Shown here piece by piece: positions 1-56,758 of a DNA stretch of 64,000 nucleotides. Numbering within the stretch: the first letter of the stretch is position 1; each line of letters opens with the position of its first letter. The notes below the pieces were generated by a model, which was not told the origin of the DNA, ran no database searches, and saw nothing but the letters and a program-made list of their open reading frames with translations. Source of the DNA: Klebsiella pneumoniae (GTDB taxonomy: Bacteria > Myxococcota_A > UBA796 > SXON01); the NCBI GenBank assembly GCA_945861635.1, contig CAMAWH010000003.1, forward strand, positions 1 to 64,000, written 5' to 3'. The position numbers were made by a program, and so were the translations under genes.

Positions 1-936
<936 letters not shown>

Positions 937-33855: not shown

Positions 33856-35241
33856 CTACAAGAGCGCGGCCGCCGCTTCCGCAAGCGGGCTGCGCTCCCC
33901 CTTTCGGAGGGTGACGTGTCCCGCCATCGGCGACATGCGGAAACGTTCGACGACGTAGGACAGCCCGTTCGACGTAGCATCGACGTAGGGATTATCGATC
34001 TGGTACCGGTCCCCGGTGAGGATCACCTTCGTACCTTCTCCTGCACGCGTGATGACCGTCTTCACCTCATGCGGCGTCAGGTTCTGCGATTCGTCAATCA
34101 CCAGGTACTGGCGCGGCAATGAGCGCCCGCGAATGTAGGTCAGCGGCTCGATTTCGATGATCTTCTGGTCGATCAGCGTCTGGTAATTGGGTGCGTGCGG
34201 CTTGCCGGTACGGCTTCCGTTCTGGGCGGGAATCGCCGTATCCTCTCCTCCGCAAAGCAGATCCAGACTGTCGAAGATGGGCTTCATCCACGGGTTCAGC
34301 TTCTCCTCCAGCGAACCCGGCAGGAAGCCGATGTCCTTGCCGAGCGGGAACACGGGCCGAGCCACCACCAACCGTCGGTACCGCTTTTCGTCGGCTACGC
34401 GCTGTAACCCCGCCGCAATCGCCAACAAGGTCTTGCCGGTGCCCGCCATGCCGTCGAGCGTGACGAGTGCCACGGAGTCGTCGAGCAGCAGATCGAGCGC
34501 GAACAACTGCTCCCGGTTGCGCGCGAAGATTCCCCAGACACCTTCCTTGTGCCGGCCCACGAGCACCAACCGCTTCTGGCGCTGGTCAAACCGGGCCATC
34601 GCCGTGTTGCTGGGATTCGCGGCGTTCTTCAGGATGACGAACTGGTTGGGGCTCACCACCTCGCCTTCTTCGGGCAGGTACCCCTTCGCGTAGATTTCGC
34701 TCACGACGTCACCGTCGACCTCTCGCTCGACCACACCCGTGTAGGCTTCATCGATTTCGATGTGACCGTGCTCGTAGTCTTCCGCCAACAACCCGAGCGC
34801 ATCTGCCTTCAGGCGCATGTTTGTGTCGCGACTGACAAACACGACCTGACCGGAGTCGCTGGCCTTGTGCAGGCGTAAACAGACGCGCAGGATGATGTTG
34901 TCGTTGCAGTCGGAAGCGCCACCGAAGATCGGCTTGGTATCGTCTGAACTTCCCAGTTCCACGCGCAGGCGGCCACCGCCGGGCAAGGGCACGCCGTCAC
35001 TGAGGCGGGCCTTGGCCCGCATGTCATCGAGCTGCCGCGAAATCGTTCGTGCGGCGCGACCGCGCTCGGTCAACTCCCTCTTGAACTTGTCCATCTCCTC
35101 GATGACGGTGATGGGCAGGACCAGATCGTGCTCGTGAAAAACCAGGAGCGAACCAGGGTCGTAGAGAAGGACGTTCGTATCAAGGACATAGGTCCGCTTT
35201 CCGGGACCGTGAAGGGATGAAGGTGCCAGAGGATGCTCCAA
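33856..35241 (-). CDS. PIN-PhoH family ATPase (PhoH2-like)
   Basis: The 461 aa protein fuses an N-terminal PIN nuclease-like domain (TYVLDTNVLLYDPGSLLVF with acidic residues, later FVSRDTNMRLKADALG) to a PhoH ATPase (VTLDGMAGTGKTLLAIAAG, the Walker A motif, and VVARPVFPLGKDIGFLPGS, then IEPLTYIRGRSLPRQYLVID with ESQN). PhoH2 proteins act as RNA helicase-nucleases. It starts at an ATG at 35241 and ends just before birA. This is a second PhoH in the window, besides the one at 28.5-29.5 kb, with a different architecture. Confidence 0.9.
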   Translation of the reverse strand: MEHPLAPSSLHGPGKRTYVLDTNVLLYDPGSLLVFHEHDLVLPITVIEEMDKFKRELTERGRAARTISRQLDDMRAKARLSDGVPLPGGGRLRVELGSSDDTKPIFGGASDCNDNIILRVCLRLHKASDSGQVVFVSRDTNMRLKADALGLLAEDYEHGHIEIDEAYTGVVEREVDGDVVSEIYAKGYLPEEGEVVSPNQFVILKNAANPSNTAMARFDQRQKRLVLVGRHKEGVWGIFARNREQLFALDLLLDDSVALVTLDGMAGTGKTLLAIAAGLQRVADEKRYRRLVVARPVFPLGKDIGFLPGSLEEKLNPWMKPIFDSLDLLCGGEDTAIPAQNGSRTGKPHAPNYQTLIDQKIIEIEPLTYIRGRSLPRQYLVIDESQNLTPHEVKTVITRAGEGTKVILTGDRYQIDNPYVDATSNGLSYVVERFRMSPMAGHVTLRKGERSPLAEAAAALL

Positions 35242-44501: not shown

Positions 44502-44652
44502 GCGGGTTTGCGACAGCCGGAATTTATCTGAAAATTTCTGCTCCACAACCGGCGAAAACGGATCCCCTCGGCCGAATCGGGGCATGATGCGGGCGCGCGC
44601 TCGACCCTCACGCCGGCGCACCCCCCTCCCTCTCCCGACAAATGGAGCTTTC

Positions 44653-47454
44653 GTGCGTATTTTTTCCTTCTCCCTCCTCCTGCTCGGCGCCTGTACCCCC
44701 ACCCCGTCCGACACCGACAAGGGCGCCGATGGTTCCGGAAATGACGCCGTGGACGCGGACGGTGACGGTCTGACGAAGGATGTCGATTGCGACGACGAGG
44801 ACGCGGCCGTTGGCCTCGCCGCAGCCTGGTACGCAGACGGGGATACCGACGGCTACGGCACCGGTGCGGCTACGACGGCCTGCGTCCAGCCACCCGGAAG
44901 CGTCAGCACGGACACGGATTGCGACGACGCGGACGGAGGCGTTCACCCGGACGCCGCCGAAGCGTGCAACGGCGCCGATGACGATTGTGATGGGGATGCG
45001 GACGAGGGATTGACCGCGACAGTCTTCTACGCCGACGACGATGGGGACGGCTCCGGGGACATCACCAAACCCGCCGCCGCTTGCGCCGCAGCGGCCGGCT
45101 ACGCCGCGACGGGCGATGATTGCAACGACGCCGATGCGGCCTACCATCCGGGCGCCGCGGAGGGAGATTGCGCCGACCCGAACGACTACAACTGTGACGG
45201 TTCGGTGGGCTACGCGGACGGCGACAGCGATGGGTATGCGGCGTGCAATGACTGCAATGACGGTGACGATGAAATCAACCCCGTGGCCATCGAACTGTGC
45301 AACGGCGTCGACGACGACTGCGAGGGCACGATCGACATCGATGCCGCCAACGAAAAAGTCTGGTACTACGATGGAGATGCCGACGGCCACGGCACCGATG
45401 CCACAACGATGAACGCGTGCGACGCACCCGCCGACTACGTCGCGACAGGCGCCGACTGCAACGACGCGGACGCCGCGTACCACCCGGGCGCCGACGAGTC
45501 CGACTGCACCGATCCCAACGACTACAATTGCGATTTGTCCGTCGGGTATGTTGACGGTGATGGCGACACGTTTGCCGCATGTGCGGATTGCGACGACGCC
45601 GACGGCGCCGTGAACCCCGACGCCGTGGAGTACTGCGACAGCATCGATAACGATTGCGACCTGACGATCGATGAGGACGACGCCGCCGACGCGAGCATGT
45701 GGTACGCCGACACTGATTCTGACAGCTTCGGGGACGCAACGAGCGTAACCGCCGCTTGCGATGAGCCGGCGGGGTACAGTGACGACGCGACGGACTGCGA
45801 GGACGCGGACGGCACGGTGAATCCCGATGCAACCGAACTGTGTGACGGCATCGACAACGACTGTGACGAGGAGGTGGACGAGGACGGCGCCGCGGACGTT
45901 GCCATGTGGTACGCCGACCTCGATGAGGACGGCTTCGGGGACGCGGAAAGCATGACGATGGCATGCGCCGCGCCCACCGGCTCCATTGCCGACGGGACGG
46001 ACTGCCAGGACAACGACCGCGCCATCCACCCCGACGCGGTGGAGGTCTGTGACGGGGTTGACAACGACTGCGACCTCACCGCCGACGAAGACGACGCCGC
46101 GGATGCATCGATGTGGTACGCCGACCTTGATGAGGACGGCTTCGGGGACGGTTCGAACATGGCCATGGCTTGCGACGCACCGACCGGCTACATCGGCGAC
46201 GATTCCGACTGCGACGACGCCGATGGCGCGGTGAACCCGGACGCGATTGAAGTCTGCGACGCCATCGACAACGACTGCGATGCCAGCACGGACGAGGCCG
46301 ACGCCGACGATGCGCAGACGTGGTACGCGGACGCAGACCTCGACACGTTCGGAGACGTCAGCGTACATACGGTGGCTTGCGACGCTCCAGCGGGATTTGT
46401 GTCCGACGATCAGGACTGCGATGACGATGATGTCACCATCAACCCCGACGGAGCGGAGGTGTGCAACGCCGCCGACGACGATTGTGACGGCGAGACCGAC
46501 GAGGACAGCGCAATCGACGCTTCGCCCTGGTACGCCGACACCGATGGTGACGGGTATGGCAATGCCGACGACGCCGTCGTCGCTTGCGACGCGCCCGCCG
46601 GCTACATCGATGACGACACCGATTGCGATGACGGCGTCAACGGGGACCACCCCGGCGCAACCGAAACGTGCGACGGCGCCGACAACAACTGCGATAGCGC
46701 CGTCGACGAAGCCGGGGCCGTCGGGGAGAGCACCTTCTACGCGGACGGTGACGCCGACACCTACGGCAACGCCAGCAGCACCGTCTCGGCGTGTGACCCG
46801 CCTTCTGGCTACGTCGAAGACGACACGGACTGCGACGATACGGAGGGCGACGTCTACCCCGGCGCGACGGAGGCCTGCGACACCGAGGACGACGATTGTG
46901 ACGGGCTCGTGGACGAAGGCGTCCTCGGTACTTCCGCCTCCTGCCCCGCCGAGGACTGCGCCGAGATTCTTGCGGCTGACCCCGCGTCCGCTAGCGGCAC
47001 GTACTCGCTCGACGCCGGGAGCTACTACTGCAACATGACGACGGACGACGGTGGGTGGACGCGAGTGGCAAACGACGCCAGCGTGTACGGCACCGGATAC
47101 TCTGGAACCTATTACAACGGCGAAGCATTCACCTGGTCAGAGGCGCTCTTTCAATACGATTCCGGCAGCACCCACGGGCACTGCACGTATCCGAGCGCGA
47201 TGACGGGCTGCAACCCGATCGGCTTCCAGTTCAACGCGGACAGCTGGGGTGTGGCGGAGAACTGGGGTTCCAGCGTCTGCGGGATGGCGCTCTCCTACTA
47301 TACGAGTTCAACCTCGTACATTGGCGGGTATGACTTCGTGATCGCGCACGCTTCGACGACCGCGACCATCCGTGTCGGCATGTTGGAAGGCATCTCCAGC
47401 TGCACCACCGGCGACAACTCGGGAACGGCGTATATTGATATCTACGTCCGGTAG
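44653..47454 (+). CDS. giant MopE-repeat lipoprotein with fibrinogen-like C-terminus
   Basis: The 933 aa protein starts VRIFSFSLLLLGAC (lipobox Cys 15; SD GGAG before GTG 44653). Residues about 30-755 carry 11 units of the MopE-type metal-binding motif: WYADxDxDGYG, APxGY, DCDD, NPDAxExC and DNDCDGxxDE, spaced 60-70 residues. The residues AEDCAEILAADP followed by YYCNMTTDDGGWTRVAN begin a fibrinogen-related domain that runs to the end (about 170 residues). It is extracellular, calcium or copper binding by analogy, and possibly an adhesin or lectin. The strongly Asp-rich sequence gives long antisense ORFs, which I discount. Confidence 0.88.
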   Translation: MRIFSFSLLLLGACTPTPSDTDKGADGSGNDAVDADGDGLTKDVDCDDEDAAVGLAAAWYADGDTDGYGTGAATTACVQPPGSVSTDTDCDDADGGVHPDAAEACNGADDDCDGDADEGLTATVFYADDDGDGSGDITKPAAACAAAAGYAATGDDCNDADAAYHPGAAEGDCADPNDYNCDGSVGYADGDSDGYAACNDCNDGDDEINPVAIELCNGVDDDCEGTIDIDAANEKVWYYDGDADGHGTDATTMNACDAPADYVATGADCNDADAAYHPGADESDCTDPNDYNCDLSVGYVDGDGDTFAACADCDDADGAVNPDAVEYCDSIDNDCDLTIDEDDAADASMWYADTDSDSFGDATSVTAACDEPAGYSDDATDCEDADGTVNPDATELCDGIDNDCDEEVDEDGAADVAMWYADLDEDGFGDAESMTMACAAPTGSIADGTDCQDNDRAIHPDAVEVCDGVDNDCDLTADEDDAADASMWYADLDEDGFGDGSNMAMACDAPTGYIGDDSDCDDADGAVNPDAIEVCDAIDNDCDASTDEADADDAQTWYADADLDTFGDVSVHTVACDAPAGFVSDDQDCDDDDVTINPDGAEVCNAADDDCDGETDEDSAIDASPWYADTDGDGYGNADDAVVACDAPAGYIDDDTDCDDGVNGDHPGATETCDGADNNCDSAVDEAGAVGESTFYADGDADTYGNASSTVSACDPPSGYVEDDTDCDDTEGDVYPGATEACDTEDDDCDGLVDEGVLGTSASCPAEDCAEILAADPASASGTYSLDAGSYYCNMTTDDGGWTRVANDASVYGTGYSGTYYNGEAFTWSEALFQYDSGSTHGHCTYPSAMTGCNPIGFQFNADSWGVAENWGSSVCGMALSYYTSSTSYIGGYDFVIAHASTTATIRVGMLEGISSCTTGDNSGTAYIDIYVR
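44749..46920 (+). repeat. MopE-type protein repeats, 11 units
   Basis: About 2.2 kb of coding repeats, each about 190-200 bases, with unit ends ExCDGxDNDCDGxxDE. Units 2 and 4 have a variant ending (DPNDYNCD), so two unit types alternate at the start. Homology between units is high at protein level but only moderate at DNA level. Confidence 0.85.
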
Positions 47455-49484: not shown

Positions 49485-49518
49485 CGTATGCTCGGGGCGC
49501 CCGGCGGAGATGCGCGCA

Positions 49519-51516
49519 ATGACAACCCGAGCGGTCGGAATCGACCTCGGCACGACTTTCTCGGCCATCGCCCACGTCAACAAGTTTGGTGTGCCGGAGA
49601 TCCTCCACAACGCCGAGGGTGAGCGGATCACGCCGTCCGTCGTGCTGTTTGAAGGTGATGACATCATCATCGGGACCTACGCCAAACAGTCGGCGGTGGC
49701 CTACCCCGAGCAGGTGGTGGAGTTCATCAAGCGGCACATGGGAGACGACGACTATCAGTTCGAGTATCGGCAGGAATCGTACACTCCCGAGAAGCTATCC
49801 AGCTTTATCCTATCAAAGCTGAAACACGACGCGGAGCTTCGCCTCGGACATCGCGTCGATCAGGCCGTCATCACCGTTCCCGCCTATTTCGGAGACAAGC
49901 AGCGCCGCGCCACCATGCGCGCGGGAGAGCTTGCGGGTCTTCAGGTGCTCGCGCTGCTGAACGAACCGACAGCGGCGGCGTTCGCCTACGGACTTGCCAA
50001 CCCCGGCGTAAACAAGAAGGTGATGGTCTTCGACCTCGGCGGCGGCACGTTCGACGTGTCCATCGTGAACGTCGACGGCCCCGAGATCACCGTCCTGGCG
50101 ACCAACGGAGATCACCAGCTCGGCGGCAAGGAATGGGATGACGCCCTGATCAAGTATGCGGCGGACCAGTTCAAGCAGCGGCATGCGATCGACCCGCTCG
50201 ACGATCTCGCCGCCTACCACGACCTCCGCCAAAAGTGCACGAGCGCCAAGCTCTCGCTCACCAAACGCCCGCGCGTCAACCTGTTCTACGATTACCGCGG
50301 GAAGATCCTGCGCTCCGAGATCACCCGGGAGAAATTCGAAGACCTGACGGGGGCGTTGCTCTCGCGGTGTGAGGCGTTGACAAAAGACGTCCTCGACGAC
50401 GCGAAGCTCACCACGGATGACATCGATACCGTCGTGCTTGCGGGCGGATCGACGCGCATGCCGATGGTCCGCGAAATGCTCAAGCGGATGTGGGGTCGCG
50501 ACCCGGCGACGGACATCAACCCCGACGAGTGTGTCGCGCTCGGAGCCGCGCTTACGGCCGCAATTGAGGCCTCCCGCCTGCTCGGTGAGGCGCCGCCAGT
50601 GGATATCCGCACCCATGACGTGACTTCGCACTCGCTCGGGATGGTGGTTTTTCGCGACGGCCGCTTGTACAACTCAAGGATTATTGAGCGAAATAGTCGA
50701 ATTCCGTGTGAGCGCACGCGTGACGACTACGTGACGACCCACGACGGCCAAACCACGATGGACCTTTGGCTCGTGCAGGGAGAAAACGACGATCCGCTCG
50801 ACTGCAACGTGCTCGGGCACTTTGAATTCTACGGCATTCCGATGCGAGACGCAGCGAAATCGCGGCTCGCCGTCACCTTCCGGTACAACGCCAACGGAAT
50901 CGTGGAAGTCGAGGCGATGGACCTCGATTCTGGGCAGACGCTCGCCCATCGGCTTGCCGCCGGTGCGGTGACGCTTGAGGATCTGGCGCGCAACCGGGCG
51001 CCGATGAACGTCGTCCTGCTGATTGATTGCTCGGGGTCCATGTACGGTGCAAACATCGAGGCAGCGCGACAGGCGGCGCTCTCCTTCTCTGAGCGGACGC
51101 TGGGTCCGAACAGGCAAATCTCCGTCGTCGCCTTTCCAGGCGGCGTCGTGTGCCCGCTGACGGCGGACCTGAAGAAGCTTCGCGAGTCCGTCACTGCATT
51201 GACGCCCATCGGCTCCACGCCGCTGGCCGCGGGCCTGGCCGCCGCGCGTGAGCTCATGAAGTCGCGTGCCGGCGTGCAGCGGGTTTTCGTCGTTCTTACC
51301 GATGGACATCCGGACGATCCGGAAGCGGCCATCACCGAGGCGCACCGCATTCGAACGAACGGAGGCCGGATCGTGACCATCGGCGTCGGCCAGCAGGTCC
51401 ACCCCGAGTTCCTCCGAGGCCTCGCGTCACGCCAGGAGGACTACCATTTCTGCAGCGAGTCCGTGGACTTGCAGGGCACCTTTATCAACCTCGCCACCGA
51501 ACTCGCGGGAGACTGA
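49519..51516 (+). CDS. Hsp70-von Willebrand A domain fusion
   Basis: The 665 aa protein has an Hsp70 nucleotide-binding domain (1 to about 370; GIDLGTTFSAI, VFDLGGGTFDVSI, VVLAGGSTRMPMV) and a substrate-binding beta domain (about 375-485; TSHSLGMVVF, TTMDLWLVQGEND). Instead of the alpha lid it has a vWA domain (about 497-660) with an intact MIDAS: LIDCSGSM, then the Thr of IGSTPLAAG, then LTDGHPDD. A MIDAS binds divalent metal and protein ligands. ATG 49519 is chosen because GGAG lies nine bases upstream, while ATG 49510 touches it. The first gene of a chaperone cluster, with a GrpE-like gene four bases downstream. Confidence 0.9.
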   Translation: MTTRAVGIDLGTTFSAIAHVNKFGVPEILHNAEGERITPSVVLFEGDDIIIGTYAKQSAVAYPEQVVEFIKRHMGDDDYQFEYRQESYTPEKLSSFILSKLKHDAELRLGHRVDQAVITVPAYFGDKQRRATMRAGELAGLQVLALLNEPTAAAFAYGLANPGVNKKVMVFDLGGGTFDVSIVNVDGPEITVLATNGDHQLGGKEWDDALIKYAADQFKQRHAIDPLDDLAAYHDLRQKCTSAKLSLTKRPRVNLFYDYRGKILRSEITREKFEDLTGALLSRCEALTKDVLDDAKLTTDDIDTVVLAGGSTRMPMVREMLKRMWGRDPATDINPDECVALGAALTAAIEASRLLGEAPPVDIRTHDVTSHSLGMVVFRDGRLYNSRIIERNSRIPCERTRDDYVTTHDGQTTMDLWLVQGENDDPLDCNVLGHFEFYGIPMRDAAKSRLAVTFRYNANGIVEVEAMDLDSGQTLAHRLAAGAVTLEDLARNRAPMNVVLLIDCSGSMYGANIEAARQAALSFSERTLGPNRQISVVAFPGGVVCPLTADLKKLRESVTALTPIGSTPLAAGLAAARELMKSRAGVQRVFVVLTDGHPDDPEAAITEAHRIRTNGGRIVTIGVGQQVHPEFLRGLASRQEDYHFCSESVDLQGTFINLATELAGD

Positions 51517-51520
51517 CGGC

Positions 51521-52012
51521 ATGTCCACGATCGATGCGAAGTTGGAAGAGATTCAGACGCTATTGCGGGACCAGCTGAAGAACGACGACATCCAGCGTAA
51601 GGCATTTGACACGCTCTATGAGGAGCTGCGCCAGTACAAGGAAGACTTCATGTTTCAGGCCGAGAAGCCGTTTCTTCTCGACCTGCTCCTGTTCTACGAC
51701 TCGCTGAACTGGTTCCACCAATCGCTCCAAAAGCGAGAGATGAGCCCGGACGTCGTCAGTGACAGCTTCCAGTATCTGCTCGACGAGTTTCTGGAGCTGC
51801 TCTACCGTCGCGACGTCGTGCCGGCGGAAGGTTCCGAGAAGTTTGATCGAAAGCTCCATAAAGCGGTAAGGGTCGTTCCAGCGGCTACGCCAGCGGACGA
51901 CTGGAAGATCGAATCCGTACTCAAACGCGGCTTCGTTCGCGCGGATCGGCAGTTGAGGGCGGAGGAAGTCGCGGTCTTCCGCATCGGCGCCGACGGGTCC
52001 ACCAAGGAGTAG
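51521..52012 (+). CDS. GrpE-like nucleotide exchange factor
   Basis: The 163 aa protein looks like GrpE: a short N-terminal coiled coil (KLEEIQTLLRDQLKNDD), long helices (FDTLYEELRQYKEDFMFQAE, LLDLLLFYDSLNWFHQSL, QYLLDEFLELLYRRDVVP) and the beta-wing domain EGSEKFDRKLHKAVRVVP, IESVLKRGFVRADRQLRAEE, VAVFR. The long N-terminal acidic helix of E. coli GrpE is cut to about 30 residues. It sits between two Hsp70 genes (gaps of four and one bases), so it probably serves them. The GrpE call rests on pattern, not on a database search. Confidence 0.75.
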   Translation: MSTIDAKLEEIQTLLRDQLKNDDIQRKAFDTLYEELRQYKEDFMFQAEKPFLLDLLLFYDSLNWFHQSLQKREMSPDVVSDSFQYLLDEFLELLYRRDVVPAEGSEKFDRKLHKAVRVVPAATPADDWKIESVLKRGFVRADRQLRAEEVAVFRIGADGSTKE

Positions 52013-52013
52013 G

Positions 52014-53684
52014 ATGGCTGACGAATCCATCATCCTCGGGATCGACCTCGGAACGACTTTTTCCGCGATGGCATATGTGGATCGCCACGGCAAGCCCTCG
52101 ATCCTGCCAAACGGAGAGGGCCACGCCACCACCCCGTCCGTCATCCATTTTTACGACAGCGACGCGTGCGTAGTCGGCGAAGAAGCCGTGAAGATGGTGG
52201 TCGTTGATGCTCCGAACGTCGTCCGGTTCATCAAGCGCAACATGGGAGAGTCCGACTATTCGCTCGATTTCTTCGGAAAGCCGTACACGCCGCAGGAACT
52301 ATCAGCCATCATCCTACGAAAGTTGAAGGACGACGCGGAGGAAGCGCTCGGATTTGCCGTGCGCGACGCTGTGGTTACCGTGCCCGCATATTTCAATTCC
52401 GCGCAGCGCGGCGCAACCGCGGAGGCGGGCAACCTCGCCGGCCTCAACGTGTTGTCGATCATCAATGAGCCGACCGCCGCAGCCATCAGCTACGGCATGG
52501 AAAAACTCGGAGGTGACCGTAACTTTCTCGTCTTTGACCTCGGCGGCGGCACCTTCGACGTGACCGTCATGGAGATCCGCGGCACCACCCTCCGCGCCAT
52601 CGCAAGTGACGGCAACGCGGAGCTGGGCGGAAAGGATTGGGACGATCGCCTTCTGGCCCACGTCGCGGGCAGCTTTCAGTCACAGTTCGGTCAGGATCCG
52701 CTGGACGATCCGCAGCCCTATCAGGAGTTGTATGAACGCTGCCTGCACGCCAAGATCTCGCTGTCCACCAAGCCGCGCGCGGTCATTCCCGTCAATTACA
52801 GGGGGCATCGTGCGGTCGTTCCGGTCACGCGTGAGGAATTCGAGGGCTTGACCCGCGATCTCATCGAACAGTGCGAGGACACCTGCAACATCGTCCTCGA
52901 AAAGGCGCGGCTACGCTGGCAAGACCTCGACGATGTGATTCTCGCGGGCGGCTCCACGCGCATGCCCATGGTTCAAAGCATGCTGCGTCGCCTGTCCGGA
53001 AAGGAGCCGGCGCCAGGCGTAAATCCTGATGAATGTGTCGCGCTTGGCGCCGCGCTCGCCGGCGTTTTTCGCCATCGTCCCCAGCACCCGGCGATCCAGG
53101 CGTACCGCGCGGCCATGGTGGCGGGCCGCGGAACAAGCGAACTGGAGATCCAGGATCCCAGCAGTGATGTGCCCGACGCGACGCATGCCAATCCTCCCGG
53201 GCCCGCCAACGCCGACAGCGAAATCGAGGTCGCGCCGAGGACGCCGTTCGGCCTGCCCGGCGTGCGCATCACCGATGTGGTGACCCACTCGCTCGGAATC
53301 GTGGTTCTGGACGCGAGCCTGAACGAACGAATCGTCAATCTGATCCCCGAATCCACGCCACTGCCCTGTGAAAAGCGCGGCCGATTTGCCTACGCCTACG
53401 ACAACATGACGGCCGTTCGAGTGGAGGTGACGGAAGGTCAGGGCGAATCCCGCGATGAGGTCGTTGTCATCGGAGAAGTCGTGCTCGACAACCTGCCGCC
53501 GCGCCCAAGGGGTACCGCGATCGAGGTCGTCTACCGCTACACCGTGAACCAGATCCTCGAGGTCGACGTTACGGACGTGGAGACGCGCCAAACGCGCCAG
53601 GCGCGGATCAACCTGCGCGGCGGCATCGCCGAGGCGGATCTTCCCGCTGCCCGCGAGCGTGTCTCAGCAGCGAACATCCACTGA
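52014..53684 (+). CDS. Hsp70-family protein without lid
   Basis: The 556 aa Hsp70 has a nucleotide-binding domain to about residue 350 (GIDLGTTFSAMAYVD, VFDLGGGTFDVTV, VILAGGSTRMPMVQ), then an inserted acidic, Pro-rich linker of about 60 residues (SELEIQDPSSDVPDA, PGPANADSEIEVAPRT), then a substrate-binding beta domain (VVTHSLGIVVLD, VRVEVTEGQGESRDEV) to the end. The alpha lid is missing. It is closely related to the Hsp70-vWA protein (shared MPMV and NPDECVALGAAL), so the two likely arose by duplication. An AAGGAG box precedes its ATG. Confidence 0.9.
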   Translation: MADESIILGIDLGTTFSAMAYVDRHGKPSILPNGEGHATTPSVIHFYDSDACVVGEEAVKMVVVDAPNVVRFIKRNMGESDYSLDFFGKPYTPQELSAIILRKLKDDAEEALGFAVRDAVVTVPAYFNSAQRGATAEAGNLAGLNVLSIINEPTAAAISYGMEKLGGDRNFLVFDLGGGTFDVTVMEIRGTTLRAIASDGNAELGGKDWDDRLLAHVAGSFQSQFGQDPLDDPQPYQELYERCLHAKISLSTKPRAVIPVNYRGHRAVVPVTREEFEGLTRDLIEQCEDTCNIVLEKARLRWQDLDDVILAGGSTRMPMVQSMLRRLSGKEPAPGVNPDECVALGAALAGVFRHRPQHPAIQAYRAAMVAGRGTSELEIQDPSSDVPDATHANPPGPANADSEIEVAPRTPFGLPGVRITDVVTHSLGIVVLDASLNERIVNLIPESTPLPCEKRGRFAYAYDNMTAVRVEVTEGQGESRDEVVVIGEVVLDNLPPRPRGTAIEVVYRYTVNQILEVDVTDVETRQTRQARINLRGGIAEADLPAARERVSAANIH

Positions 53685-53779
53685 ATCCCGACGAGCGCGG
53701 CGATTCGAGGAGCGCCACCGCGCAAGCATTGCTCTTGACGGGTTGACGGATCGCCCCGCACGGGCAAAGGTTCGGCGCA

Positions 53780-55774
53780 ATGGAACGACGTGAGCTCGAC
53801 GACATCGAGCGATTCCTTACTACGGTGGGTCATCCCACGCTGCTGGCGTACTACGGTCTCACCGAGTCCGGAACGCCAGAAGACCGTGAGGCGGCCGTCA
53901 AGAAGCGCCGCGCGTGGGCGCAGGGCCAACAGGCCAACCCGAAATTCAAGGCGGAAGCTCTCTTTCTGATCAAGAACAATACGACGCTGAAGCGCCTCCT
54001 GGTAATGGACTTCGATGCGTATCGTCAGCACTTCATCGACGTCGCCTCGGCGAAGAATGTAGACGAGCTGTCCCAATTCATCCGCGGCGCGCTGGCAAAC
54101 GCGGTTTTGACCGCCCAGGGAGAAGCAGCCGCTCGGCACCACGGGCGCGCCCTCGGCCTCGACGACGCCGTCGTGGGTGCGCGCATCGATGAATTGCTCA
54201 ACGAGATGGGGGCCGTGCGGGGCGACTTCGAGGACGACGCGATTCCTGGCAGTGCAGCAGCGGTCGATTATTACGCCGTCCTCGATGTCTCGCCGTTCGC
54301 AACACCGGCCGAATTGGAGTTGGCGTACCGGGCGAAATACCGATGGGCGCGCAACGTGAAGGACCTGAAACGGTCCGGCGAGGTCTTGTCCAACCTCGAC
54401 GATGGCTGGCGGATCCTGAAGGATCCCGCAAAACGTGACCGCTACGACGAGATGCGCGCCCAACTGCGAGAGGTCACCGACGAAGTCGAGCGACACGCCG
54501 CAAAGCTCAATCAACTCCTCGAAGACGAGCGTCAGGCGGAGCCGCCGGACCCGCCGGCGATCTCGATGGGGCCGCCGACGGAGTACGCGCCCCGCCACGT
54601 GGTGCCCACCACGACCGATGAAACGCGGCTCCCGACGACCCCGGTGAGGTCCGGCGGAGCGGTAAGCGGCGCGGTGCCAACGGAGCCGGCCTCCCCCCTT
54701 GTTACCGGGCGCCCCGTGGACGTCGTACGGACGCCGGACGCGATGAAGGAAGCGAGAGAGAACGCGCCGCCGAAGCCCAGAGACGCGCCGGTTCCACAGA
54801 TTGCCGGTCGAACCATCGGGATCGCCGACGGACCGCAAGCTGTACGAGAGCGCGCGCCGCGCTTGCAGGTACAAGGCGCAACGATGCTTCGAATGACCGT
54901 TGGTCGGCGGACGACCGACTACGGCCTCCAGATCGTGAATGTCGGGCAGGGAAAGATGCCAGGAAAGCTGGTCACCGACTCGCCGTGGCTGGTGCCGCAA
55001 AAGCTCTGGCTCGAACCGGGAGCGCGTGAACAAACGATTGTTGTGTCCGTCCGGCCGGAGCGCATGGCGCGGCGGACGATGACTGGTACGGTCACCGTGG
55101 TCGCCGACCACGGGGAAAGGCGGGTGATCACGTTCGACGTGCGAAAGCGGGGATACGCCGTTCCACTGCTTTTGCTGCTATTGCTGGTGAGCGCCGTGGG
55201 CGTTGCCGGCCTTGCCGTGGAGGCCAACCAGCCGCCGGCAGCGCCGCTGTCGCCCGCGCTGCTGCTCACCGTGGTCCCCTTCGCGGACCGCGTTCTGGTG
55301 GACGGTGTCGACATCGGTAGCGGCTCGACCATCACGGTCGAGGATCCGCACGCCGGTGCGCCGTTCCGCGTCCGTATCGAGACGGATGGCTTCGCCCCGC
55401 ACGAGGAACTCGTGGCCCTCCGCGGATCTCCAATGCAGCGCACCATTCGGCTTGACCTCACCGACAGGATGGACTGGAAGCCCGCGCTCGATGCGACGCG
55501 GACCGACCTCGGACCCCGCGGCGAGAAACTGGCGCGCGCGTTGGCGCCCGTCCTCGCGACGTGCGTGGTTCCACCTGTCAAAAACGCACAAGCAACATTC
55601 CATGCCTTGGCATCTTCGGATGGACAGGTGCGCGGGCTGACCGTCGACGGAGCGAACTTCTCGGTTCCTCCGGCCGCCCCGTGCTTCATGCATGCATTCC
55701 GCGGGATGCGAGTGGGCGGATTCGAGGGGGACTACGCCCAGATCGACATCGACCTGAAGCTGCCGGCTCCATGA
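53780..55774 (+). CDS. membrane protein: J-like domain, Ig-like, TM helix, PEGA
   Basis: The 664 aa protein begins with a helical domain (about 5-85, HPTLLAYYGLTESGTPEDRE) that may itself be a degenerate J-like fold. At 163-232 there is a J domain (DYYAVLDVSPFATPAELELA, then NLDDGWRILKDPAKRDRYDE), but the His-Pro-Asp tripeptide that stimulates Hsp70 is absent. A Pro-rich linker follows, then an Ig-like domain (about 370-455, VNVGQGKMPGKLVTDSPWLV), one membrane helix (about 460-482, VPLLLLLLLVSAVGVAGLAV), a PEGA domain (about 494-550, VDGVDIGSGSTITVEDPHAG) and a periplasmic tail. It ends overlapping the next start by four bases. It probably anchors the neighbouring Hsp70s. Confidence 0.78.
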   Translation: MERRELDDIERFLTTVGHPTLLAYYGLTESGTPEDREAAVKKRRAWAQGQQANPKFKAEALFLIKNNTTLKRLLVMDFDAYRQHFIDVASAKNVDELSQFIRGALANAVLTAQGEAAARHHGRALGLDDAVVGARIDELLNEMGAVRGDFEDDAIPGSAAAVDYYAVLDVSPFATPAELELAYRAKYRWARNVKDLKRSGEVLSNLDDGWRILKDPAKRDRYDEMRAQLREVTDEVERHAAKLNQLLEDERQAEPPDPPAISMGPPTEYAPRHVVPTTTDETRLPTTPVRSGGAVSGAVPTEPASPLVTGRPVDVVRTPDAMKEARENAPPKPRDAPVPQIAGRTIGIADGPQAVRERAPRLQVQGATMLRMTVGRRTTDYGLQIVNVGQGKMPGKLVTDSPWLVPQKLWLEPGAREQTIVVSVRPERMARRTMTGTVTVVADHGERRVITFDVRKRGYAVPLLLLLLLVSAVGVAGLAVEANQPPAAPLSPALLLTVVPFADRVLVDGVDIGSGSTITVEDPHAGAPFRVRIETDGFAPHEELVALRGSPMQRTIRLDLTDRMDWKPALDATRTDLGPRGEKLARALAPVLATCVVPPVKNAQATFHALASSDGQVRGLTVDGANFSVPPAAPCFMHAFRGMRVGGFEGDYAQIDIDLKLPAP

Positions 55775-56583
55775 GCCGGACGCTGACCGTCGAGCAGCTG
55801 CGCGAACGGGCGCTCTCGTTGATGGATGGTGATCCGGATGAGGCCGTACGCGCCGTCGAGGAGGCGCTGGAACGCCAACCCGACGCGGAGGGGTTCTACG
55901 TTTGCGGCGTTGTTCTATGTGAAGTGGGCGACGCGCAGGAAGGCATCGGCGCCTTGCGAAGGGCCGTAGAGATGGACCCCACGCTTCCCGACGCCGCGTA
56001 CACGCTGGCGCGCGAGGAATTCGCCCGGTATCAGTTCGAAGAAGCGCGTGAGCATGTCAGTCTGGCCTTGCGCCTCGATCCGCATCATGCGGACGCCCGG
56101 TACCTGCGCGCTTGCCTGCGCGAACGACGCGGCGATCACGACGGGGCTCTCCGAGACTATCAATCGGCGGCTCTCTCCGAACCGGTGGACCTGCCGATGC
56201 CGATTCCGCTCGCGGACGAGGAGATCGACGCGGTCGTCGATAGTGTGCTTGGGGAACTACACCCCTCCCTCCGCCGCTACCTGCAGGACGTCGCGATCAT
56301 TGTTGAGGACGTTCCGCCCATCGAGGTGCTCGAGGACATCGTTGACGGCGCGCACCCGACGGACCTGCTCGGCTGCTTCAGCGGCCATTCGCTCGTCGAG
56401 CGTGACTCCGCCGACCCGTGGACCGCGCTCCCCGCTACGATCACCATCTACCGCAGGAACCTCGCCCGAATCGCGCAAGATCGCGACGAGTTGCACAACG
56501 AGCTGCGTGTGACGCTTCTCCACGAGATTGGACACTTCCTCGGACTGGACGAGGTCGACCTGGCCGAGCGCGGGTTGGACTAG
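55771..56583 (+). CDS. TPR-zincin metallopeptidase (Zincin_1/DUF1025 type)
   Basis: The 270 aa protein has three or so TPR motifs (about 20-135: PDEAVRAVEEALERQPDAEG, EGIGALRRAVEMDPTLPDAA, EAREHVSLALRLDPHHADAR). These are followed by a zincin domain with LADEEIDAVVDSVLGELHPS, VEDVPPIEVLEDI and the catalytic helix LLHEIGHFLGLDE, an HExxHxxGLD/E signature. It belongs with Zincin_1-type small metallopeptidases. ATG overlaps the J-protein stop (ATGA), so the protease is translated with the chaperone anchor. It ends with LAERGLD and is followed by tRNA-Ala. Confidence 0.85.
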   Translation: MSRTLTVEQLRERALSLMDGDPDEAVRAVEEALERQPDAEGFYVCGVVLCEVGDAQEGIGALRRAVEMDPTLPDAAYTLAREEFARYQFEEAREHVSLALRLDPHHADARYLRACLRERRGDHDGALRDYQSAALSEPVDLPMPIPLADEEIDAVVDSVLGELHPSLRRYLQDVAIIVEDVPPIEVLEDIVDGAHPTDLLGCFSGHSLVERDSADPWTALPATITIYRRNLARIAQDRDELHNELRVTLLHEIGHFLGLDEVDLAERGLD

Positions 56584-56634: not shown

Positions 56635-56710
<76 letters not shown>

Positions 56711-56717
56711 CCAAACC

Positions 56718-56758
56718 AAAAACCCCCGGTTCATCCTTGCGGATGGCCGGGGGTTTTT
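56718..56758. terminator. bidirectional Rho-independent terminator
   Basis: An AAAAACCCCCGG arm pairs with CCGGGGGTTTTT around a 17-base loop region that itself can form GGATG-like pairs. The A and T tracts on both sides would terminate tRNA-Ala from the left and the PilZ gene from the right. Confidence 0.88.

Follow-up and report, generated by a model that had tools for sequence, protein, structure and literature searches.

The 64,000-nucleotide window analysed here, the first stretch of contig CAMAWH010000003.1 (assembly GCA_945861635.1), is part of contig C3 of a 5.58 Mb genome that is 88% complete. It contains a row of five genes, A to E, encoding an Hsp70 fused to a von Willebrand factor A (vWA) domain, a divergent GrpE-like protein, a second Hsp70, a membrane protein with a J domain that lacks the His-Pro-Asp (HPD) motif, and a TPR-containing metallopeptidase (Table 1). 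All five lie on the plus strand at 49519-56583, with intergenic gaps of 4, 1, 95 and -4 bases, exactly as an earlier interpretation of the bare sequence (the sequence-only reading) had described. Its labels for A, B, C and E are recovered by Pfam, while for D the DnaJ match falls under the cut-off and PEGA is undetected in the window's protein. One uncultured Myxococcota-like order has conserved this set. At the level of aligned residues, both of its Hsp70s have a rewritten J-domain control surface alongside intact ATPase residues.

Table 1. Features of the five-gene cluster. Genes, tRNA and hairpin are placed by window position, domains by residue of the encoded protein.
Feature	Position	Strand	Basis or remark
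Gene A, Hsp70-vWA fusion, 665 amino acids	49519..51516	+	Pfam HSP70 6e-135, VWA 3e-17
Gene B, divergent GrpE-like, 163 amino acids	51521..52012	+	Pfam GrpE 5e-14, 52.7 bits
Gene C, second Hsp70, 556 amino acids	52014..53684	+	Pfam HSP70 2e-118
Gene D, J-like/beta-sandwich/transmembrane/PEGA-like protein	53780..55774	+	Pfam DnaJ 2.6e-4, AlphaFold model
Gene E, TPR and Zincin_1 metallopeptidase domain	55771..56583	+	Pfam Zincin_1 2e-25 plus TPR
tRNA-Ala(CGC)	56635..56710	+	directly 3' of the cluster; marks its boundary, not a member
Terminator-like hairpin	56733-56754		after tRNA-Ala(CGC)
A, nucleotide-binding domain (NBD)	~1-360		followed by polar linker DIRTHDVT
A, beta substrate-binding domain (SBD-beta)	~364-479
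A, vWA domain	496-663		in place of alpha-helical lid
A, metal-ion-dependent adhesion site (MIDAS)	D503/S505/S507/T567/D595
D, N-terminal domain, probably J-like	~18-80		loop QGQQANPK; helical region continues to ~145
D, J domain without HPD	157-230		CbpA J domain 3ucs_C, Z 11.5, 1.7 Å, 71 residues
D, low-confidence linker	between J domain and sandwich		AlphaFold model
D, MSP/PapD-like beta-sandwich	355-458		PapD/MSP folds in structure search
D, single transmembrane helix	460-478		AlphaFold model
D, PEGA-like domain	493-557		strands in model; PEGA in relatives
D, C-terminal alpha/beta domain	579-661		AlphaFold model
E, TPR domain	~17-140
E, Zincin_1 domain (PF06262)	171-268		HEIGHFLGLDE

An in-frame ATG at 49510, 9 bases upstream, is a possible alternative start for A. 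No plus-strand terminator-like site was found in the gap between C and D, and RNA folding of this gap gave nothing notable (z 0.06). A promoter scan found 0 sites where 1.0 would be expected by chance.

The order of the genes is conserved beyond what chance would give. Across 50 database loci, ordered by stop position, B follows A in 48/48 and C follows B in 46/46 of those with room, and A-B-C also occurs in all 30 separately fetched loci, the window's own among them. The complete set was counted where 5.6 kb or more follows A, which holds for 27 loci; the other 23 of the 50 have less and stand outside this count. All five genes are present in 23 of the 27, including one locus (L057) scored as ABCED merely through an early-starting open frame. 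Three loci carry A to D without E (L087, L088, L090) and one carries A-B-C alone (L062). The family files exclude sequences truncated at a contig end. The sequence-only reading had staked its idea of a system on related genomes keeping these genes together, and they do.

The set is also confined in its range. Of the 63 genomes of the order, the present one included, 60 carry the fusion of the substrate-binding and vWA domains, versus 0 of 314 other genomes of the phylum, among the matches listed and with at most 6 candidates scored per genome. The three genomes of the order missing it are G016, G055 and G319. Among the same matches, the best outside the order (65 bits) covers the vWA part alone, while three further outside rows (G135, G294 and G112, 52-55 bits) cover approximately the first 210 of the 296 query residues, which corresponds to the substrate-binding domain and about half of the vWA domain. 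The N-terminal domain of D, with at most 10 candidates scored per genome, is present in 51/63 genomes of the order (weakly in G026 and G042) versus 0/314 others of the phylum. Of 58 genomes of the order, again counting the present one, 56 have a homologue of B; that of G042 matches weakly and could be an ordinary GrpE. Other phyla were covered by a pattern scan, which finds close relatives. A plasmid search with the substrate-binding and vWA part returned 5 records, which are chromosome-sized and all match the Hsp70 part only.

Relatives of the surrounding genes point to a stable location. Of the 50 loci, 44 hold a relative of the window's Maf-bearing open reading frame (ORF), and 25-26 hold relatives of its SecDF, TGT and QueA genes, counted by presence rather than position. 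The cluster therefore seems to have stayed in one neighbourhood. The records of these relatives are labelled Deltaproteobacteria, Proteobacteria or Myxococcota, along with a few other names. Bins titled Klebsiella pneumoniae (L052, L053, L072, L078) carry the Myxococcota-like cluster or its gene A, and these titles look wrong.

A and C are both lidless Hsp70s. In A, the Hsp70 match stops at position 491 of the 599-position profile, after which the vWA domain begins, and the structural match stops at residue 482; the alpha-helical lid (SBD-alpha) is not present. The metal-ion-binding vWA domain sits where this lid would be and its MIDAS is intact, with the D, S, S and D residues found in 47/47 A and the T in 46/47. 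An AlphaFold model of A (predicted local distance difference test, pLDDT, 87.3; predicted template modelling score, pTM, 0.79) matches ATP-state DnaK (4b9q) over residues 3-482, with Z 49.1 and 1.8 Å over 469 residues. The ATP-like docked state of the model is weak evidence because models often take one state. The lid is also not present in C, whose last Hsp70 stretch ends at profile position 506, ~14 residues from the end of the protein. C has ~50 residues more than A between the NBD and the linker. Neither protein reaches the NCBIfam equivalog cut-offs for DnaK (PRK00290/TIGR02350), scoring 447.6 (A) and 411.9 (C) bits versus 648, or 437.2 and 399.1 bits versus 822.6 with the other model.

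Residue positions were mapped onto E. coli DnaK for 47 A, 37 C and the genome's 7 Hsp70s outside the cluster. Four spurious or non-Hsp70 ORFs (from L005, L006, L012 and L013) were dropped from the counts, and alignment A2 leaves out 6 of the 47 A. The ATPase residues D8, T11, K70, E171, D194 and T199 are each conserved in 47/47 A and in 36-37 of 37 C. The exception is a C at L085:5710-7389, a pseudo-Hsp70 beside an intact A, which has V, P, Q and D at the T11, K70, E171 and T199 positions and forms a very long branch in the Hsp70 tree. In some lineages C may therefore be a scaffold. In this tree, built from 13 of the 47 A, 12 of the 37 C and the 7 other Hsp70s, a supported branch separates each group from the rest (100/99, 98/99 and 100/100; midpoint root).

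The residues that contact J domains have not been kept in this way. In the available text of PMC8215388, H33 of the HPD motif in E. coli meets the backbone of L391, P34 meets P419, and D35 meets R167 and Q378; R167 is described as key in that of PMC7289447. R167 is retained in 7/7 other Hsp70s of the genome but in only 1 of 47 A (L080) and 0 of 37 C. A has K (28), A (12), S (4), N (1), Q (1) or R (1) at this position, and C has S in 37/37, the window's protein included. The linker leucines L391 and L392 are likewise L in 7/7 other Hsp70s; they are replaced by T and H in 44/47 A, and by I, V or F at 391 and mostly T or E (29/37) at 392 in C. Q378 is kept in 5/7 other Hsp70s versus 2/47 A and 0/37 C, and E217 in 6/7 versus 1/47 and 0/37. 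C also shows a charge reversal at two allosteric positions, with K326 in 32/37 and E414 in 26/37. D477, a further J contact, is uninformative, since its identity also varies among the seven Hsp70s outside the cluster, and L390 is retained in 3/7 of these. The sequence-only reading had proposed a plain scheme of Hsp70, exchange factor and J partner, which is borne out only in part, both Hsp70s having lost the arginine at 167 and the linker leucines.

The J domain of D is altered as well. The J fold of residues 157-230 is borne out by the structure match, and comparison of D with PDB profiles gave matches to DnaJ proteins from E 1e-11. In the window's D the Pfam DnaJ match is under its cut-off (21.5 versus 27.8 bits), although DnaJ is found in 25 of the 28 rows of alignment A1, which omits 3 of 31 D; alignment A3 omits 4. 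The HPD slot (residues 193-195) reads HPD in 2/31 rows (L072 and L092), with 3/31 gapped and thus 28 readable, and its commonest reading is LKD (10 rows). D is a membrane protein with a J fold, as the sequence-only reading had it, but not an ordinary J partner. PEGA (PF08308) is undetected in the window's D at E 0.1 and occurs in 7/28 rows of alignment A1 with a best E of 1.7e-5.

The best-conserved part of D lies outside its J domain, in an N-terminal loop, Q48-x-x-Q51-x-N53-P54-K55 (QxxQxNPK), which is invariant in 31/31. With hhalign, the N-terminal domain pairs with the J domain of D itself (93%, 31 columns, helices I-II) and, weakly, with HPD J domains (48% over 57 columns for a set of 11, 38% for a first set of 4), while the maximum in 75 control comparisons was 4.1%. 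As the loop also lies between two helices in the model, like HPD, the N-terminal domain is probably J-like. The AlphaFold model of D (pLDDT 83) has a pTM of 0.35, so the relative placement of the domains is not fixed, and a whole-model Foldseek search gave a match list filled by beta-sandwich proteins. A basic RKRG stretch before the transmembrane helix suggests that the N-terminus is inside and the C-terminus outside. The QxxQxNPK domain also occurs away from the cluster, at L171:7619-8971 (genome G048) and L172:6652-8034 (genome G032), in proteins of 450-460 amino acids whose second half is a methyltransferase (Methyltransf_11, E 7e-13 and 1e-12). Another D-like protein is encoded at L174:3151-4827.

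B is presumed from its sequence to be a nucleotide exchange factor. Its Pfam GrpE match spans residues 7-152 and scores 52.7 bits versus a cut-off of 25.8, while falling far under the NCBIfam GrpE equivalogs. E retains the HExGHxxGLxE zinc motif in 27 of 28 family rows, the exception again being L085. Its solved relative is 3e11, a 'predicted zincin-like metalloprotease' (E 8e-9), and no signal peptide was seen by eye in E. TPR domains link to the EEVD ends of eukaryotic Hsp70s, and the TPR of E could suggest a similar link, but A ends in LAGD and C in NIH, neither of them with EEVD. The sequence-only reading had coupled the machine to a protease. This goes too far as worded, its basis being the intact HExxH and gene order only, with D present without E in 3/27 loci and both absent in 1/27.

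The genome holds nine Hsp70 genes, A and C plus seven others, with two weaker HSP70-fold matches (L012, L013) left uncounted. A GrpE-Hsp70-DnaJ row is found on contig C34 at 31853, 32456 and 34404. The sequence-only reading had set the cluster apart from a dnaK at 8.1 kb of the window. The cluster is indeed distinct from the other Hsp70s, but the 8.1 kb gene is probably not the main DnaK because of the C34 row and the existence of seven Hsp70 genes besides A and C. The wider claim of a dedicated set with a membrane protein, apart from the other Hsp70s of the genome, is supported by synteny, the survey of the order and the tree. Four of the other Hsp70s adjoin a J-type match (C34:31853-34592, C62:8973-11099, C1:123207-125110 and C1:192661-194842), and one of these, on C34, is also beside a GrpE. 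J-type domains without HPD occur elsewhere in the genome at C11:55507-55710, C10:118747-118953 and C6:82055-82252 (L166, L169 and L170).

These features could be explained by one dedicated, membrane-tethered Hsp70 device under non-HPD control, ancestral to the order and acting as a holdase or switch, an account to which we give about even credence. Both Hsp70s retain an ATPase site and a peptide-binding beta-sandwich and lack the alpha lid, and the GrpE-like B would exchange nucleotide. D may tether the Hsp70s at the inner membrane through its cytoplasmic N-terminus while its PEGA-like part reaches the cell wall. On both sides, the trigger that runs from HPD to R167 and the linker would have been given up or greatly changed, and the invariant QxxQxNPK loop of D would be the likely new point of contact with A and/or C. 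The pair could then serve membrane or envelope clients as a holdase or switch timed by ATP, with the vWA domain as a gripping arm, and a cytoplasmic E may trim or remove some of these clients. The gene set and its conservation, the domain layout, the intact ATPase, MIDAS and zincin motifs and the loss of HPD, R167 and the linker leucines are directly observed; we infer the single complex, the role of QxxQxNPK, the vWA domain as a lid substitute, the topology, the clients and the hand-over to E. A bolder form holds that the pair has left HPD/R167 control altogether, so that its driver is a tandem J-like membrane protein acting through QxxQxNPK, and the vWA domain, in place of the lid, is an ion-dependent clamp in an envelope-coupled switch. 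This form is tentative and on the doubtful side.

Several observations weigh against a device with non-HPD control. P419, D393, N170 and R151 are retained in A and C, the K at 167 in 28/47 A could still pair with an acid, and the third-position D of the HPD slot is retained in 23/31 D, including wherever D was aligned in rows with A or S at 167 in A. The two HPD rows have K167 in A and S in C, and the row with R167 in A is without HPD, so the rows do not covary. Given the three other J-type matches without it, loss of HPD alone is not special. The evidence that the N-terminal domain of D is J-like is moderate, the MIDAS of A could be structural, and the loss of four ATPase residues in the C of L085 indicates that hydrolysis by C is dispensable in at least one lineage. 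E is absent in 4/27 loci and D in 1/27. Many of the same residues favour a dedicated yet mechanistically ordinary machine, in which the J domain of D or another HPD-bearing J protein triggers A and C and the changes reflect drift or specificity; the retention of B and of HPD in 10/13 other J-type matches of the genome is also consistent with this. Such a machine is hard to reconcile with the serine of C and the A, S, N or Q in 18/47 A at position 167, the window's A among them, or with the changes at Q378, L391, L392 and E217 in both proteins. It is an unlikely, if serious, contender.

It may also be that the cluster serves conflict, immunity or a stress threshold in the manner of the Hsp70-GrpE theme seen in GAP1-N2 GTPase systems, with the Hsp70s as a sensor or polymerising switch and E as the effector. 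The likeness in parts to this theme (Hsp70, GrpE, reduced Hsp70 and DnaJ/TPR-FNIII, the last fibronectin type III) and the fit of a vWA domain and a peptidase to the general grammar of such systems, as set out in the available text of PMC7159879, speak for this. The five genes and another 18 of the window, of which 13 lie within ~7.5 kb of the cluster and four match no Pfam family, showed no GTPase or GAP1 family in a scan that did not extend to the flanks of relatives. The set also occurs in most genomes of the order in a shared neighbourhood, unlike patchy conflict systems, and its single PADLOC match is weak, making this explanation distinctly improbable. Less probable still is that A-B-C is the functional unit and that D and E are neighbours by history which serve envelope maintenance. 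The contiguity of A-B-C in every locus with room fits this, as do the divergence of D (22-46% identity to the window's D), the occasional absence of D and E, and a C-D gap that is 95 bases here and spans 6-262 bases in 30 loci, with starts chosen by script. However, D follows C in 26/27 loci and bears a J domain where the J-contact surface of A and C is rewritten, and D and E overlap by 4 bases in the window and are spaced between -13 and +33 bases in 22/26 loci.

The nearest described layout may be the GAP1-N2 Hsp70/GrpE theme, and the nearest way of working that of HscC with DjlB/DjlC. GAP1-N2 GTPase systems, which are defined by a GTPase and described mainly from actinobacteria and firmicutes, pair Hsp70 with GrpE, some of them also including an additional reduced Hsp70; an FNIII-repeat protein carries a fused DnaJ domain or TPR (PMC7159879, available text). 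In outline they share the part list of the cluster, and their wider class also has links to the membrane and cell wall, whereas the Hsp70-vWA fusion, the HPD-less J domain, the zincin peptidase, the restriction to one Myxococcota-like order and the shared synteny set the cluster apart. The sequence-only reading knew of no described system with this exact set; the closest one found in print, this theme, is similar without being identical. E. coli HscC is also a specialised Hsp70 near membrane-anchored J genes, the tail-anchored DjlB and DjlC, with proposed membrane-protein clients; it has a lid and lacks the GrpE signature in the available text of PMC8215388, unlike the two lidless Hsp70s here with their GrpE-like partner and no HPD. 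Canonical DnaK-DnaJ-GrpE shares the Hsp70 fold, intact ATPase site and SBD-beta, a GrpE family member and a J domain. The cluster differs from it in having no lid and no HPD, in its changed R167, Q378 and linker leucines, and in a membrane protein that replaces DnaJ.

Myxococcus xanthus provides further examples of extra Hsp70s in SglK/GrpS and the PilZ-DnaK proteins CsdK1/CsdK2, with consecutive locus tags for Hsp70 and GrpE (MXAN_6671/6672) and a fused domain (PMC8265645, PMC10313047). SglK belongs to the PRK00290-type DnaKs and can rescue E. coli that is mutant in dnaK, the domain fused in CsdK is PilZ rather than vWA, and the five-gene set was not found in these systems as described in the available text of both sources. 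CoCoNuT systems, which combine McrB/C with the Hsp70-like CnuD (PMC11090510, available text), were rejected as no McrB/C family was found among the scanned genes. No MoxR-type AAA+ ATPase, which a MoxR-vWA ternary system would have beside its vWA gene, was found among them, the sole AAA-type match being a PhoH-like protein at 33859-35241. PMC2651865 was rejected as a precedent for Hsp70 with vWA, its available text concerning eukaryotic phagocytosis. Among the matches listed, neither the Hsp70-vWA fusion, the J-PEGA protein nor the five-gene set was recognised in the open-licence literature.

The surrounding genes of the window are housekeeping genes, encoding SecD/SecF, TGT, QueA, Maf and RdgC. 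Shortly upstream of the cluster, at 44584-47454, lies a gene for a protein of 956 amino acids with ten matched Cu-binding_MopE stretches (PF11617, E 1e-74). A phage origin was rejected, as the PHROGs matches of B, D and E were only to weak families of unknown function and the neighbouring genes are housekeeping. A defence system was likewise rejected, PADLOC having given one weak match, to A (E 4e-4, 17 bits).

Hsp70s are described as being triggered in general by the contact of HPD with R167 and the linker. If this contact is truly missing or altered on both sides here, in a conserved pair with intact ATPase sites beside a protein whose probably J-like domain bears a different invariant loop, the cluster would be a natural experiment in how else an Hsp70 can be controlled. 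A vWA domain in the lid position would, if its role is as proposed, be a new way of closing an Hsp70 on its client. For the order itself, known here from metagenome bins alone, the cluster offers a testable signature machine.

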